NCBI GenBank assembly: GCA_024277445.1
Contig: JAJRVE010000150.1
Location: forward strand, 1 to 38,654
Length of the DNA: 38,654 nucleotides
Reading direction: 5' to 3'
From: Campylobacterales bacterium
Lineage (GTDB): Bacteria > Campylobacterota > Campylobacteria > Campylobacterales > Sulfurimonadaceae
In this document: positions 536 through 23,311 of the stretch, one piece after another
Layout of the letters: each line of letters starts with the position of its first letter
How positions within the stretch are numbered: position 1 is the stretch's first letter
Notes under the pieces: generated by a model
Databases searched by the model: none
What the model was told of the DNA's origin: nothing
The model's input: the letters and a program-made list of their open reading frames with translations, nothing else
Program-made: the position numbers and the translations under genes

Positions 536-673
536 GCGTACTCCTGTAAAAACTTCTCTTTACTTATTGTAACTTAGAAGCATTCTAAAAACGTCACAAA
601 GTTGGGTGATGTGTTAAGAAGATGACGCAGTTCATCTTTAAAGCGATTAAAATTTTTGGAAGGTTGTGGCTCG

Positions 674-703
674 TGGATTCCTGCCTTCGCAGGAATGACG
701 GGA
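674..703. repeat. REP-like palindromic repeat, copy 1
   Basis: GTGGATTCCTGCCTTCGCAGGAATGACGGG; stem TCCTGC/GCAGGA. Confidence 0.8.
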
Positions 704-760: not shown

Positions 761-873
761 AAAAAAAGTTTCAGATGTGGAGTGAGTTGTGCTGAAGTGA
801 TCCCGCAGGCGTACTAATGTACGTCAAGTGGTGAACTGAAGTGCAAATCGCACCGCAGCTGGAATCTTTTTTA
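761..873 (-). repeat. Structured repeat family SR, copy 1, overlapping the natural RNase J stop
   Basis: Near-perfect terminal inverted repeats AAAAAAAGTTTCAG / CTGGAATCTTTTTT; internal GCGTAC-TAAT-GTACGT hairpin; alignable to copies 2 and 3. Confidence 0.8.
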
Positions 874-3069
874 AGAGACGAAGACGTTAGGGACGATTAG
901 CGGATACTTTTTCATCTTACGATAGATATGCTTACGCACAACCGCTCTAAGATCATTTTCCATCGCCTTAGCATTTTCTATAAGACCTGGTTTCAAGTTA
1001 ACCAAGAAGTGCTCAAGAACATCTTCCATCTCAGCAGCAAATGCCTTGTCTTGCTTGTCAGGAACGATTCAGAAACTCGTCACGCGAGGCTTAGCAATAA
1101 GTTTCTGATCTCCACGAGAGACCTGAGCAATGATCATCACCATACCATCACTTGCCATCTTCTGACGGTCAACAACCACATCATCAGCGATCATATGGTT
1201 GTTTTGGTTATCTATGTAGGTCTTACCAGACTTAACTGACTTAGCTTTACGCATATACTTCGCAGTTACTTCGATACAGTCACCATCGCCCATCAACAAG
1301 ATGTTACGCTCAGGGATACCACAAAGCATTGCTGTCTCTTTATGACGCATAACGTGGTTGTACTCACCGTGAATTGGCATAAAGAATTTAGGCTTAGCTA
1401 AACGTAAAAGAAGCTTCTGCTCTTCGATACCACCGTGACCAGATACATGAAGATCACGATCACGTGCAATACGTGCACCCGCTTTTTCAAGGTGGTTAGT
1501 CATCTCAGAGATGCCACCTTCGTTACCTGGAATAGCACGAGACGAAAGAACAACCAAGTCAGTTGGCTTGATCTTAATATGACGGTGCTCACCAATAGCT
1601 GTTCTAAAGAGCGCAGAGTTCTGCTCTCCCTGAGAACGAGTCGTCAAGATAAGAACTTGCTTATCTGGCATACGACTTACATCATCTGCATCCACAAAGA
1701 TGTTCTTAGGGAAGTCTAGGTACTTGTACTGCATCGCAACCTCAAGGTTACGCTCCATCGATCGACCGATGACACAGATCTTACGACCATACTTGATCGC
1801 ATAGTTGATAGCCTGCTCTAAACGGTGAAGGTTAGAACTAAAAGTAGAGAGGATAATACGTCCTTCTGCCTTAGACATAACACGGTCAAGTGCTGGTGCA
1901 ACAGAGAGTTCACTTGGTGTGATATCTTTGTTGTAAGAGTTTGTTGAGTCAGACATCATCAACAAAACACCTTTTTCACCATAGTGTGCATAACGGTGAA
2001 GGTCCGTTGGGTAACCATCGATCGGTGTATGGTCGATCTTGAAGTCACCCGTATGGATAACGGTACCCGCGTCAGTTGTGATCGCCACTGATGATGAGTC
2101 TAAGATAGAGTGCGTAACATGCATCCACTCGATCTCAAAGTCGTTACCGATCTTGTATACTTTACGCTTCTCAATAGGACGGAAGAAACGACGAGCATCA
2201 GTAAGTTTATGCTCATCAAACTTGTTACCGATCATCGCTAGTGGCATAGCCGTACCGTAAGTTGGGAACTGAAGACCCTCTTTAAACATATATGGCATCG
2301 CACCAATATGATCTTCGTGAGCGTGAGTAATGATAACAGCAACGATCTTGTTTCTAATCTCTTTGATGTAAGAGAAGTCAGGTACCAAGATATCAACACC
2401 GTGCATCGTCTCATCTGGGAAACTCATACCAACATCAATAAGAATCGCTTCGTTATCTGTCTCGATTACCATCATGTTTCCACCGATCTCGCCAAGACCA
2501 CCTAGTGGAGTAACACGTACTTTAGCCGTTGACTTAAGATCAAGCTTGTTGTGTGGGTTAAGACGCTCTGCTTGAACCTCTTGGTTACGAACAGCACAGT
2601 CAAGAAGCTCTTGAACCACTGGTGCAGGTCCGTGACGACGACGTTTTTTGTTACCGCCGTTACGATTTTGGTTGTTGTTGCGGTTGTTATTGTTTCTATT
2701 ATTGTTGTTGCGATTTTGGTTGTTGTTCTCGCCCTCTTTTTTCTCACCGTTTCTGTTTTGGTTATTGTTACGGTTTTGATTGTTGCGATTACGATTGTTG
2801 TTATTACGATTTTGGTTGTTGTTTTGGCGGTTGCCGTCTACATTACGCTCGCGAGGTTCACGGTTACCATCAACATCTGCATTTTCACGTGGCTGGCGGT
2901 TACCATTTACTTCACGGTTCTCACGTGGTTGGCGGTTACCATTACGGTTATTGTTGTTACGTGGACGACGTGGACGGCTCTGTTGACCTTCACCCTCTTT
3001 ACGAGGCGTTAATGGCTCTGAGGTTAAAGCTGGCTTGTTTTCTATGTTATTGTTTTGTGTATCTGACAT
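871..3069 (-). pseudogene. rnj: Ribonuclease J, interrupted by in-frame TGA at 1069-1071 (intact ORF 1069..3069; same-frame continuation to TAA at 871)
   Basis: Metallo-beta-lactamase motif HAHEDHIG, TGDFKID, beta-CASP and GHGG motifs; after the TGA the same frame reads IVPDKQDKAFAAEMEDVLEHFLVNLKPGLIENAKAMENDLRAVVRKHIYRKMKKYPLIVPNVFVS*. Confidence 0.8.
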
Positions 3070-17801: not shown

Positions 17802-17858
17802 AATAAGGGTGACTTAGTTTGTCTGAGTGGGTTCTTAAATTATTGGAAGGTTGAGATT

Positions 17859-17888
17859 CGTGGATCCCTGCCTTCGCAGGGATGACGG
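17859..17888. repeat. REP-like palindromic repeat, copy 2
   Basis: GTGGATCCCTGCCTTCGCAGGGATGACGG; stem CCCTGC/GCAGGG, compensatory relative to copies 1 and 3. Confidence 0.8.
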
Positions 17889-17974
17889 AAAACTTGAACT
17901 ACTTACAAGTTAGCAACCGCAACCGACGGCGAAGCTCGTCGAAACAGTAGCCATCCCAAAACAGTTTCCCCGTC

Positions 17975-18084
17975 GTAAAAGTTTCAGATTTGGTGTGAGT
18001 TGTGCCGGATGTGAACCCGATAGCGCACTGCTGTGCGTAGAGAGGTGAACTCCGGTGCAAATCGCGCCGAAGCTGGAACTTTTA
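17975..18084 (-). repeat. Structured repeat family SR, copy 2, 3 nt past the pstS stop
   Basis: Terminal inverted repeats GTAAAAGTTTCAG / CTGGAACTTTTAC; internal GCGCAC-TGCT-GTGCGT hairpin. Confidence 0.85.
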
Positions 18085-18087
18085 CTT

Positions 18088-19092
18088 TTACTTGATGTTT
18101 GTTGTCCAATATTCCCGTATCATGTTTTTTGTCGCCTCTGGAAGTGGGATATACCCTAACTTCTTAGCTGCTGCATCACCACTCTTAAATGCATAGTCAA
18201 AAAACTTAATGACTTTTTGGTTCATCTTAGCTTTCTCAACAGGAAGAAGGATAAATGTTGCGGCAACGATAGGGTACGATGTGTCACCTGGTTGTAGTGC
18301 TAGCATCGCATAAAAGTTGTCTTCTTTTGTCCATGAAGCGTACTTCGCGGCTGCTTTGAAGTTTGCCTCTTTAGCCTCTACCCATTTACCACTTGCTGTC
18401 TGAAGAACTGCCGCTGAAAGGTGGTTTTTCTCTTTGTAAGCGTTTTCGATATAACCAATAGTATATGGCGTCTGCTTAACAAGTGAAGCAACACCTTCGT
18501 TACCCTTACCACCAATACCAACAGCCCAGTCGATCGCCTTGCCCGCACCATAGTTGTCAGCCCAGTTTTTAGAGCTTTTGTTTAGGTAGTACGTAAAGTT
18601 GTATGTCGTACCCGATCCATCAGAACGGTGAACAACAATGATCTCTTGGTTAGGAAGTTTAAGTCCCTTGTTGTCCGCTACGATCGCCGCATCATTCCAC
18701 TTCGTGATCTTACCGGCAAAGATGTCTGCAACCACTTCATTTTTAAGATGCAGTTTTGCATCTTCGATACCAGGAACATTAAGCGCAATAACAATCGAAC
18801 CAATAACCGCAGGGAACTGAAGTAATTTTTTCTTCGCAAGCTCTTTTGACTTAAGAGGCTTGTCAGAAGCACCAAAGTTAACGATACGCTTAGAGATCTG
18901 CTTGATCCCGCCACCCGAACCGATAGACTGATAGTTTACACGTGAGTGAGTTTCTTTACCGTACTTGTAAGCCCAGTCGTAATAAAGTGGAGCTGGAAAT
19001 GATGCACCCGCACCACTAAACTTGTCGCCTGCGACAGAAGCAGTCGCAGCAACAGCAATAAGAAGAGCGCTTGTAGCTAATTTCTTGAACAT
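18088..19092 (-). CDS. pstS: Phosphate ABC transporter substrate-binding protein PstS
   Basis: Signal peptide; GAGASFPAPLYYDWAYKY, INYQSIGSGGGIKQI-like segment, RSDGSGTTYNFTYYL. Confidence 0.96.
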   Translation of the reverse strand: MFKKLATSALLIAVAATASVAGDKFSGAGASFPAPLYYDWAYKYGKETHSRVNYQSIGSGGGIKQISKRIVNFGASDKPLKSKELAKKKLLQFPAVIGSIVIALNVPGIEDAKLHLKNEVVADIFAGKITKWNDAAIVADNKGLKLPNQEIIVVHRSDGSGTTYNFTYYLNKSSKNWADNYGAGKAIDWAVGIGGKGNEGVASLVKQTPYTIGYIENAYKEKNHLSAAVLQTASGKWVEAKEANFKAAAKYASWTKEDNFYAMLALQPGDTSYPIVAATFILLPVEKAKMNQKVIKFFDYAFKSGDAAAKKLGYIPLPEATKNMIREYWTTNIK

Positions 19093-19700: not shown

Positions 19701-19747
19701 TCATGAATAGTATTGAGTCCAGAAAGTTAAAAGACCAAAATTATCTG

Positions 19748-19774
19748 TGGGTTCCTGCCTTCGCAGGAATGACG
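19748..19774. repeat. REP-like palindromic repeat, copy 3
   Basis: GTGGGTTCCTGCCTTCGCAGGAATGACG adjacent to the selO 3' end. Confidence 0.8.
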
Positions 19775-19776
19775 TA

Positions 19777-21210: not shown

Positions 21211-21410
21211 GATGAAGTTTTAGCAGAGAGTTTGTGAAAGTGTTCATGTTTTGTGAGGAAGATTATTTTATTAAGAAAAAGAGAAGAGAATGGGTAGTCG
21301 AAGTGTACTTTAAAGATAAAAGCAACAATCCTCCAGCAGAGGGACATGACTTCTATTTTAGCATAGCGTTAAAAAATGGACGCCGTGTCCCACTCCATCA
21401 AGATAGTAAG

Positions 21411-21482
21411 CTGTGCCGGATGTGAACCCGGTAGCGCACTGGTGTGCGTGGAGTGGTGAACTCCGGTGCAAATTGCGCCGAT
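21411..21482 (-). repeat. Structured repeat family SR, copy 3, core only, downstream of typA
   Basis: TGTGCCGGATGTGAACCCGGTAGCGCACTGGTGTGCGT...GGTGAACTCCGGTGCAAATTGCGCCG closely matches copy 2; terminal repeats not recognisable. Confidence 0.8.
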
Positions 21483-21505
21483 ACCCGAGGGGGCAGACCC
21501 AGCTA

Positions 21506-23311
21506 CTACTTCTTACGGGCGTGGCGCTTGCGCTCTGACTCTGTTAGGTATACTTTACGTACACGAATACTCTCTGGAGTAATCTCAAGAAGCTCATCGT
21601 CTTCGATCCACTCTAGTGCTCTTTCTAGTGAAAGGTCACGTGGTGGAACAAGTTTGATCGCCTCATCTGCACCAGATGAACGAACGTTTGACTGTGCCTT
21701 ACCTTTAATCGGGTTAACTGCAAGGTCATTTGAACGCGCGTGCTCGCCAACGATCATACCTTCGTAAACCTTCGTCTGTGGTCCAACAAAAAGAACACCA
21801 CGATCTTGAAGACCGAAAAGTGAGAATGAAAGTGTTACACCATTTTCCATAGAAACGAGTGCGCCATACTGACGAGACTCAACTGCGCCAGAGAATGGAC
21901 GGAACTCGATGAAAGAGTGGTTCATAACACCCTCACCTTTTGTGTCTGTCAAGAACTGACCACGGAAACCGATCAATGAACGAGCAGGGATCTCGAACTC
22001 AATACGCTGGAAACCAGAACCCATTGGGATCATAGACTTCATCTCAGCCTTACGCTTACCAAGACGCTCGATAACACCACCTGAAAGATCTTCAGGAACG
22101 TCGATGACTAGGTGCTCAAATGGCTCACATTTAACGCCTTCGATCTCACGTTGGATAACTTGTGGACGAGAGATTCCGAACTCGAAACCTTCACGACGCA
22201 TGTTCTCAGCAAGTACAGTAATCTGAAGCTCACCACGTCCGCTAACACGGAATTTACCCTCACCAATACGCTCAAAACGCATGGCAACGTTCGTTGTCAT
22301 CTCAGACTCAAGACGCTCTTGGATCTTGTTCGATGTTACGTGCTTACCTTCTTGACCTGCAAGTGGTGAGTTGTTAACTGAGAAGATAACAGAAAGTGTT
22401 GGCTCTTCTACGTGCATTGGGTCAAGTGCTACAGGGTTGTTAGGATCACATACCGTGTCACCAACATCTACTGTCTCAAGACCAGCGAAGGCAACGATAT
22501 CACCTGCTTCTGCTGTGTCAATCTCCATACGCTGAAGACCAAGGAAACCGATAAGCTTAGAGATCTTACCTTTTACAAGTTCACCGTCTGCTTTTGCAAG
22601 AAGAACGCTGTCACCCTTAGAGATCTGACCATTAAAGATACGTGCAATACCAATCTTACCTACGTAGTTATCGTAGTCAAGTGTAAAGACCTGTGCCTGT
22701 GCAGAGTTCTCTTTGTCCCCTTGAGGCTCAGGAACATCTTCGATAATTGACTTGAAAAGACAAGTAAAGTCACCATCTTCGTCATCCATATCTTCTTTAG
22801 CGATACCATCACGTGCAGCCGCGTAGATAACTTTGAAGTCTTGTTGCTCATCGGTTGCACCCATGTCAGCGAAGAGGTCAAAGACTTCATCAACAACACG
22901 ATCACATTCAGCTTCTGGCTTGTCGATCTTGTTAATAACAACGATAGGTGTAATTCCCATTGCTAGCATTTTCTTAACAACAAACTTAGTCTGTGGCATA
23001 ACACCTTCGTAAGCATCAACAAGGATTAAAGCCCCATCAACCATCTTAAGTACACGCTCAACTTCTCCACCGAAGTCCGCGTGACCCGGAGTGTCAATGA
23101 TGTTAATCTTGTAACCATCATAACGGATAGCCGTGTTCTTAGAAAGAATCGTAATTCCACGCTCTTTTTCGATGTCGTTTGAGTCCATGGCACGTTCGTC
23201 ATGCTGCTCATGATCTCCAAATGTACCTGACTGCTGAAGTAGTCCGTCTACGAGTGTTGTTTTACCGTGGTCAACGTGTGCGATTACGGCGATGTTTCTG
23301 ATTTTTTGCAT
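21506..23311 (-). CDS. typA: Translational GTPase TypA/BipA
   Basis: [55 protein letters not shown]; BipA C-terminal domain. Confidence 0.97.

Follow-up and report, generated by a model that had tools for sequence, protein, structure and literature searches.

Enterobacterial-type intergenic imperfect palindromes such as ERIC are dispersed, non-autonomous sequences of about 100-130 nt, and we know of neither a fixed stop-codon adjacency nor a gene-specific outer stem in these repeats. REP and REPIN sequences (GTAG and CGTC superfamilies), which go with RAYT genes, are many dispersed intergenic palindromes often found near gene ends. Escherichia coli REPs no more than 15 nt from a stop codon are reported to slow the terminating ribosome (PMC12306157). 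Integron attC sites follow the stop codon as well, and it is their antisense (bottom) strand that folds, on the leading-strand template (PMC5371416). Here, we analyze a structured repeat (SR) present in three copies in a 38,654-nt contig (JAJRVE010000150.1, hereafter the window) from a Campylobacterales bacterium of the family Sulfurimonadaceae (Campylobacterota).

Three SR copies in the window

The three copies (Table 1) sit at the ends of genes encoding RNase J, a PstS-type phosphate-binding protein and BipA/TypA. As noticed in a sequence-only reading of this DNA, all three genes are on the minus strand with SR in one relative orientation, and the terminal inverted repeats of copy 1 end exactly on the stop codon of the RNase J C-terminal frame. 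The compensatory exchange in the tip hairpin that had been pointed out is equally visible in the letters, since GCGTAC-TAAT-GTACGT in copy 1 is replaced by GCGCAC-TGCT/TGGT-GTGCGT in copies 2 and 3. What had been described as an internal hairpin is indeed a hairpin, but it is merely the tip of one continuous structure that spans the whole element. Copy 3 is a full copy, broken up by nested hairpin insertions. The RNase J gene itself is frameshifted near position 1069, with its C-terminal 65 codons off the frame of the main ORF, which may be either an assembly error or real.

Table 1. Positions of the SR copies, their host genes and adjoining repeats in the window
Feature	Position	Strand	Remarks
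SR copy 1, full element	761-873	+	Folding strand +, antisense to RNase J
Copy 1, P1 distal (5') arm AAAAAAGTTTCAG	762-774	+	
Copy 1, P1 proximal (3') arm CTGGAATCTTTTTT	859-872	+	Overlaps stop codon of gene
Copy 1, conserved 88-nt core, AGATGTGG...CCGCAGCT	773-860	+	Helices P2-P4
Copy 1, P4 apical hairpin	809-824	+	GCGTAC-TAAT-GTACGT
TAA stop codon, RNase J C-terminal frame	871-873	-	Coincides with outer end of copy 1
RNase J ORF	1069-3069	-	C-terminal part in another frame, about 871-1068
SR copy 2, full element	17974-18086	+	At end of PstS-type gene (stop 18088-18090)
PstS-type phosphate-binding protein (PBP_like_2)	18088-19092	-	
SR copy 3, core	21406-21476	+	Nested hairpins interrupt outer helices on both sides
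Nested hairpin GGGACATGAC...GTGTCCC beside copy 3	21333-21393		Same type breaks up the copy in locus L028
BipA/TypA gene	21506-23311	-	TAG stop 21506-21508 abuts copy 3 with nested 20-nt hairpin
CGTC-tagged REP-like repeat, distal side of copy 1	650-701	+	Also 17837-17888, 19724-19775

Pairing in SR is under selection on one strand, antisense to the host gene

SR is a single hairpin of ~112 nt and about 40 pairs, consisting of an outer stem P1 (~11 bp plus AG/CT), a 9-bp P2, an internal loop, P3, and a P4 capped by a tetraloop. Its core measures 88-89 nt in all 27 copies examined. By eye, P3 displays tandem G-A motifs, in which CTGAAG or GTGAAC faces itself, and an invariant TTGTGC/GTGCAA with tandem G-U pairs. 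Covariation was judged against shuffle and slide controls, and none of 500 shuffles reached the observed level. The dispersed copies yielded 18 two-sided pairs (89 cells versus 28 when shuffled) and the set of single-copy hairpins found at porB 23 (111 versus 32), and both sets exceeded every control in cells paired, two-sided pairs, two-sided cells and covariation score. The covariation and selected structure proposed from the window alone are therefore borne out. On the antisense strand of the host gene, G-U pairs far outnumber A-C pairs (150 versus 9, and 133 versus 4), and this strand is the more stable in all 45 sequences (24/24 and 21/21), with a folding energy of -57 kcal/mol against -35 kcal/mol for the sense strand. 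Selection on pairing is thus confined to the antisense strand.

The sequence-only reading had suggested a 3'-UTR RNA element or a terminator module. A sense hairpin in the host mRNA, which would protect the 3' end, slow the terminating ribosome or end transcription, would account for the exact placement at the stop codon and the single orientation relative to the gene; the sense RNA does fold, and the E. coli REPs offer a precedent (PMC12306157). However, pair changes that pass through G-U on the antisense strand leave the mRNA with A-C mismatches, the sense side of several stems lacks a T run, and an orientation bias by replichore beyond the strand bias of genes (see below) is not predicted. 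We consider this reading unlikely, and neither a 3'-UTR RNA nor an intrinsic terminator is the natural interpretation, because the strand with the covariation and the many G-U pairs runs antisense to the gene. SR as the intrinsic terminator of its host gene is not supported by direct inspection either: a short-loop scan returned no terminator-like site at copy 1, and the T run is missing from several copies.

Could transcription of the plus strand, running towards the gene end, instead yield a small RNA or an antisense regulator? That strand has about 16% G-U pairs and fixed tandem U-G/G-U and tandem G-A motifs, as structured RNAs do. Yet no promoter is conserved in 34 porB loci, no promoter-like site is present at copy 1, and the downstream genes at porB are of mixed orientation (21:13), which also discards convergent neighbors as the explanation of the folding strand. 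Rfam 15 covariance models gave no SR match at either gathering or permissive thresholds. We regard an antisense RNA as quite doubtful. An ARAGORN tRNA scan of three SR loci gave no match, and a cobalamin-riboswitch-like stretch (GGTGCAAATC), suggestive by eye, had no match either.

SR is fixed to stop codons, gene orientation and, in one complete chromosome, replication direction

Gene-end placement in a fixed orientation, which had been claimed for the three window copies, holds well beyond them. In five species (G000, G025, G043, G049 and G007), SR starts between -12 and +20 nt from the stop codon in 111 of 117 sampled copies, the other six appearing by eye to be shifted by nested hairpins or divergent, while the orientation relative to the host gene is the same in all 117. 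The hosts include, besides the three genes of the window, porB, lgt and def; judging from their sequences, argJ, gmk, infC, carA and a thioredoxin gene look like further hosts.

The only complete chromosome, G025, shows that orientation also follows replication. All 12 copies between 0.25 and 1.2 Mb are on the minus strand, and all 17 between 1.59 and 2.87 Mb are on the plus strand. The analysis of G025 used stretches around the matches and sample stretches at even spacing. With replichores placed by GC skew, 68% of sampled genes are leading. Every one of the 29 copies follows its replichore, with host genes leading (p ~1.5e-5 given that share), as do 27/27 when the two weakest matches are removed. 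In this one complete chromosome, SR orientation is thus fixed by replichore.

SR is abundant in one genus and likely descends from a porB hairpin

A covariance-model search of this and related genomes, which had been proposed from the window, revealed tens of copies. A DNA search of the window's genome produced 40 matches, of which some were fragments of the same copy, and a model built from 24 copies produced 60, from which opposite-strand matches to the same hairpin were removed, leaving about 35-40 distinct copies, far above chance. Seven other genomes of the genus contain 17-55 matches each, so that SR is numerous in all eight, while other genera of the family have mostly one or few. The sequence-only reading had staked its case on further copies, covariation and nonrandom placement and orientation, all of which were found. 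The PorB protein of the window's genome is 98% identical to that of MAG S145_25 and 97% to that of MAG GH11. Phages, plasmids and viral contigs gave no SR match. SR also occurs at gene ends in two other genera (G065, locus L066; G013, locus L067), where the host-protein C termini (SEAGPK..., NASNGAALKTEL) resemble those of host genes in the window's genus; this resemblance suggests either older dispersal or transfer of a gene together with its element.

As for its origin, many Sulfurimonas and several sister genera have an SR-type hairpin 3' of the porB stop codon (35 of 80 named porB loci), and in most Sulfurimonas genomes scanned this copy is the single strong match. Conservation at the porB copies falls to background just outside P1 (34 loci). 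The porB 3' hairpin is likely the ancestor of the repeat family, and its conservation across the bacterial family suggests a function useful to the host, which a purely selfish reading leaves unexplained.

Copies are gained, lost and swapped between related species. At the end of lgt, SR is present in four of eight genomes and absent from four, and at def it occurs only in G000 and G060. Neither a clean empty site nor a target-site duplication was seen at these lgt and def orthologues, where intergenic DNA diverges too fast to align. Orthologous copies from divergent species resemble each other no more than randomly chosen copies do. For the close pair G043/G049, identity between orthologous copies is mostly 96-100%, with three exceptions at 79-85%. 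The genes at these three sites nevertheless encode proteins that are 99-100% identical, and hardly any differences are seen in the DNA past the intergenic stretch, indicating that these copies were exchanged or replaced.

The outer stem matches each host gene

While the core is constant, P1 varies among copies and tracks the end of the host gene, down to TAG/CTA versus TAA/TTA. In copies with a nonstandard P1, the two arms of a copy match each other much more closely than arms exchanged between copies do (0 of 10,000 permutations), and at lgt each SR-bearing lineage has its own matched P1. Over all copies, pairing is 0.78 at position 10, 0.59 at position 11 and 0.28 at position 12; P1 therefore matches about the last 11 bases of each host gene and stops abruptly. 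This sharp end makes template copying of arbitrary length less likely as the sole source of P1. A self-priming hairpin is a further idea, to which we give little credence: with the core at a stop codon, the 3' end would fold back on the new leading strand and copy ~11 nt of the gene end, so that each insertion would make an inverted copy of its target as outer stem. Were this true, insertion or renewal would be tied to fork direction, of which we know no described example.

Nested and neighboring repeats

Small hairpins are nested at fixed places within SR (window 21333-21500; loci L028 and L057; several G025 loci, L182, L185-L190 and L193), for example TGGGTCTGCCCCTTCGGGTA between AGC and TCGG, or GGGACATGAC...GTGTCCC; another, CCCGACCGAAGGGACAAATGCCCTTGGGG, is found in the Sulfurimonas porB copies L097 and L144. 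In locus L024 (G000:C79), a second, partial SR copy lies in tandem directly distal (upstream) of the first, and the outer arms of the two are almost alike (ACATAAGCCGTAG versus ACATAAGTCGCAG). CGTC-tagged REP-like repeats (CCGTCATTCCTGCGAAGGCAGGAATCC), of which three are located in the window, are found distal to many SR copies, so these intergenic regions have the appearance of hairpin repeats arranged in an ordered mosaic.

The CGTC unit beside some SR copies is separate and not constant. SR ends bear no unpaired GTAG/CGTC tag of the kind that marks one end of a 20-40 bp palindrome, and no SR match occurs in 12 Y1_Tnp loci with their flanks. SR as a RAYT/REPIN unit is not supported. As to a MITE, also raised by the sequence-only reading, the spread resembles that of a mobile element, but a matching transposase was not found, the RAYT genes have no copy in the flanks searched, the inverted ends are gene-specific and no autonomous parent was found.

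SR has the strand geometry of attC sites but not their sequence

Scattering of attC sites by an integron integrase would explain three features of SR, namely its stop-codon adjacency, its antisense folding strand and the position of that strand on the leading-strand template, and two genomes of the genus encode integron integrases above cut-off. On the other hand, IntI passes the cut-off in 2/8 genomes while SR is present in 8/8, the host genes are chromosomal housekeeping genes, and no SR was found in 52 kb searched around the integrases. The core boxes R'' and R' (RYYYAAC/GTTRRRY) expected at the hairpin base are absent as constant boxes from the SR alignments, where the stem at the base differs from gene to gene, with compensatory changes. 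We therefore hold it very improbable that SR copies are attC sites, an identity that fails on sequence, arrays and distribution. The integrases above the TIGR02249 cut-off lie in G025:C1 at about 1030-1046 kb (L354, L355) and in G049:C114. G025 has an array of at least 12 attC-type repeats (TAACGTTTAAAATGAGCAATCAAAAAGCC...), different in sequence from SR.

Discussion

With attC membership failing, and the RNA readings weakened by the G-U-rich strand, the lack of a conserved promoter and the mixed orientation of neighbors, we favor, with moderate confidence, a dispersed and still-mobile family of DNA hairpins derived from the porB 3' hairpin, with an attC-like geometry but no attC. The porB hairpin would have spread to tens of gene ends in the window's genus, with exchange ongoing, and the folding strand would act as single-stranded DNA rather than RNA. 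By analogy with the attC bottom strand, this strand, antisense to the gene and on the leading-strand template, may be maintained in the orientation that hides it from the lagging-strand template. Copying of DNA from one repeat to another would spread and homogenize the family, a process that hairpin cleavage or template switching may assist. Against a DNA hairpin family stands the observation that, in the orientation seen, the strongly folding strand is not the one that is single-stranded at the fork. The IntI and RAYT loci of the genus show no link to SR, and no mobilizing enzyme was found. If confirmed, the DNA hairpin family would let the spread and correction of DNA hairpins, and their exclusion from the lagging strand, be studied in a natural setting where each genome offers tens of replicates, and the single porB copy would be a dated starting point for the passage from functional 3' hairpin to repeat family.

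We have not found described the combination of fixation to stop codon, gene orientation and replication direction with a gene-matched outer stem; among the palindromes compared here, none is fixed to all three at once and none has an outer stem matched to each host gene. Set beside attC sites, SR has no constant R boxes, no cassette arrays and a sequence unlike that of the genus's own attC repeats. Intrinsic terminators resemble SR in their A-rich/T-rich stem ends directly after the gene, but SR folds strongly on the opposite strand, is without a T run in several copies and has an 88-nt conserved apical structure. Like REP/REPIN, SR is dispersed and close to gene ends, yet it is one 112-nt strand-asymmetric hairpin abutting the stop codon in a single orientation; it lacks its own tag, and no link to RAYT was found. 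ERIC-type palindromes, which we set against SR by description only, share with it the character of dispersed, non-autonomous imperfect palindromes.
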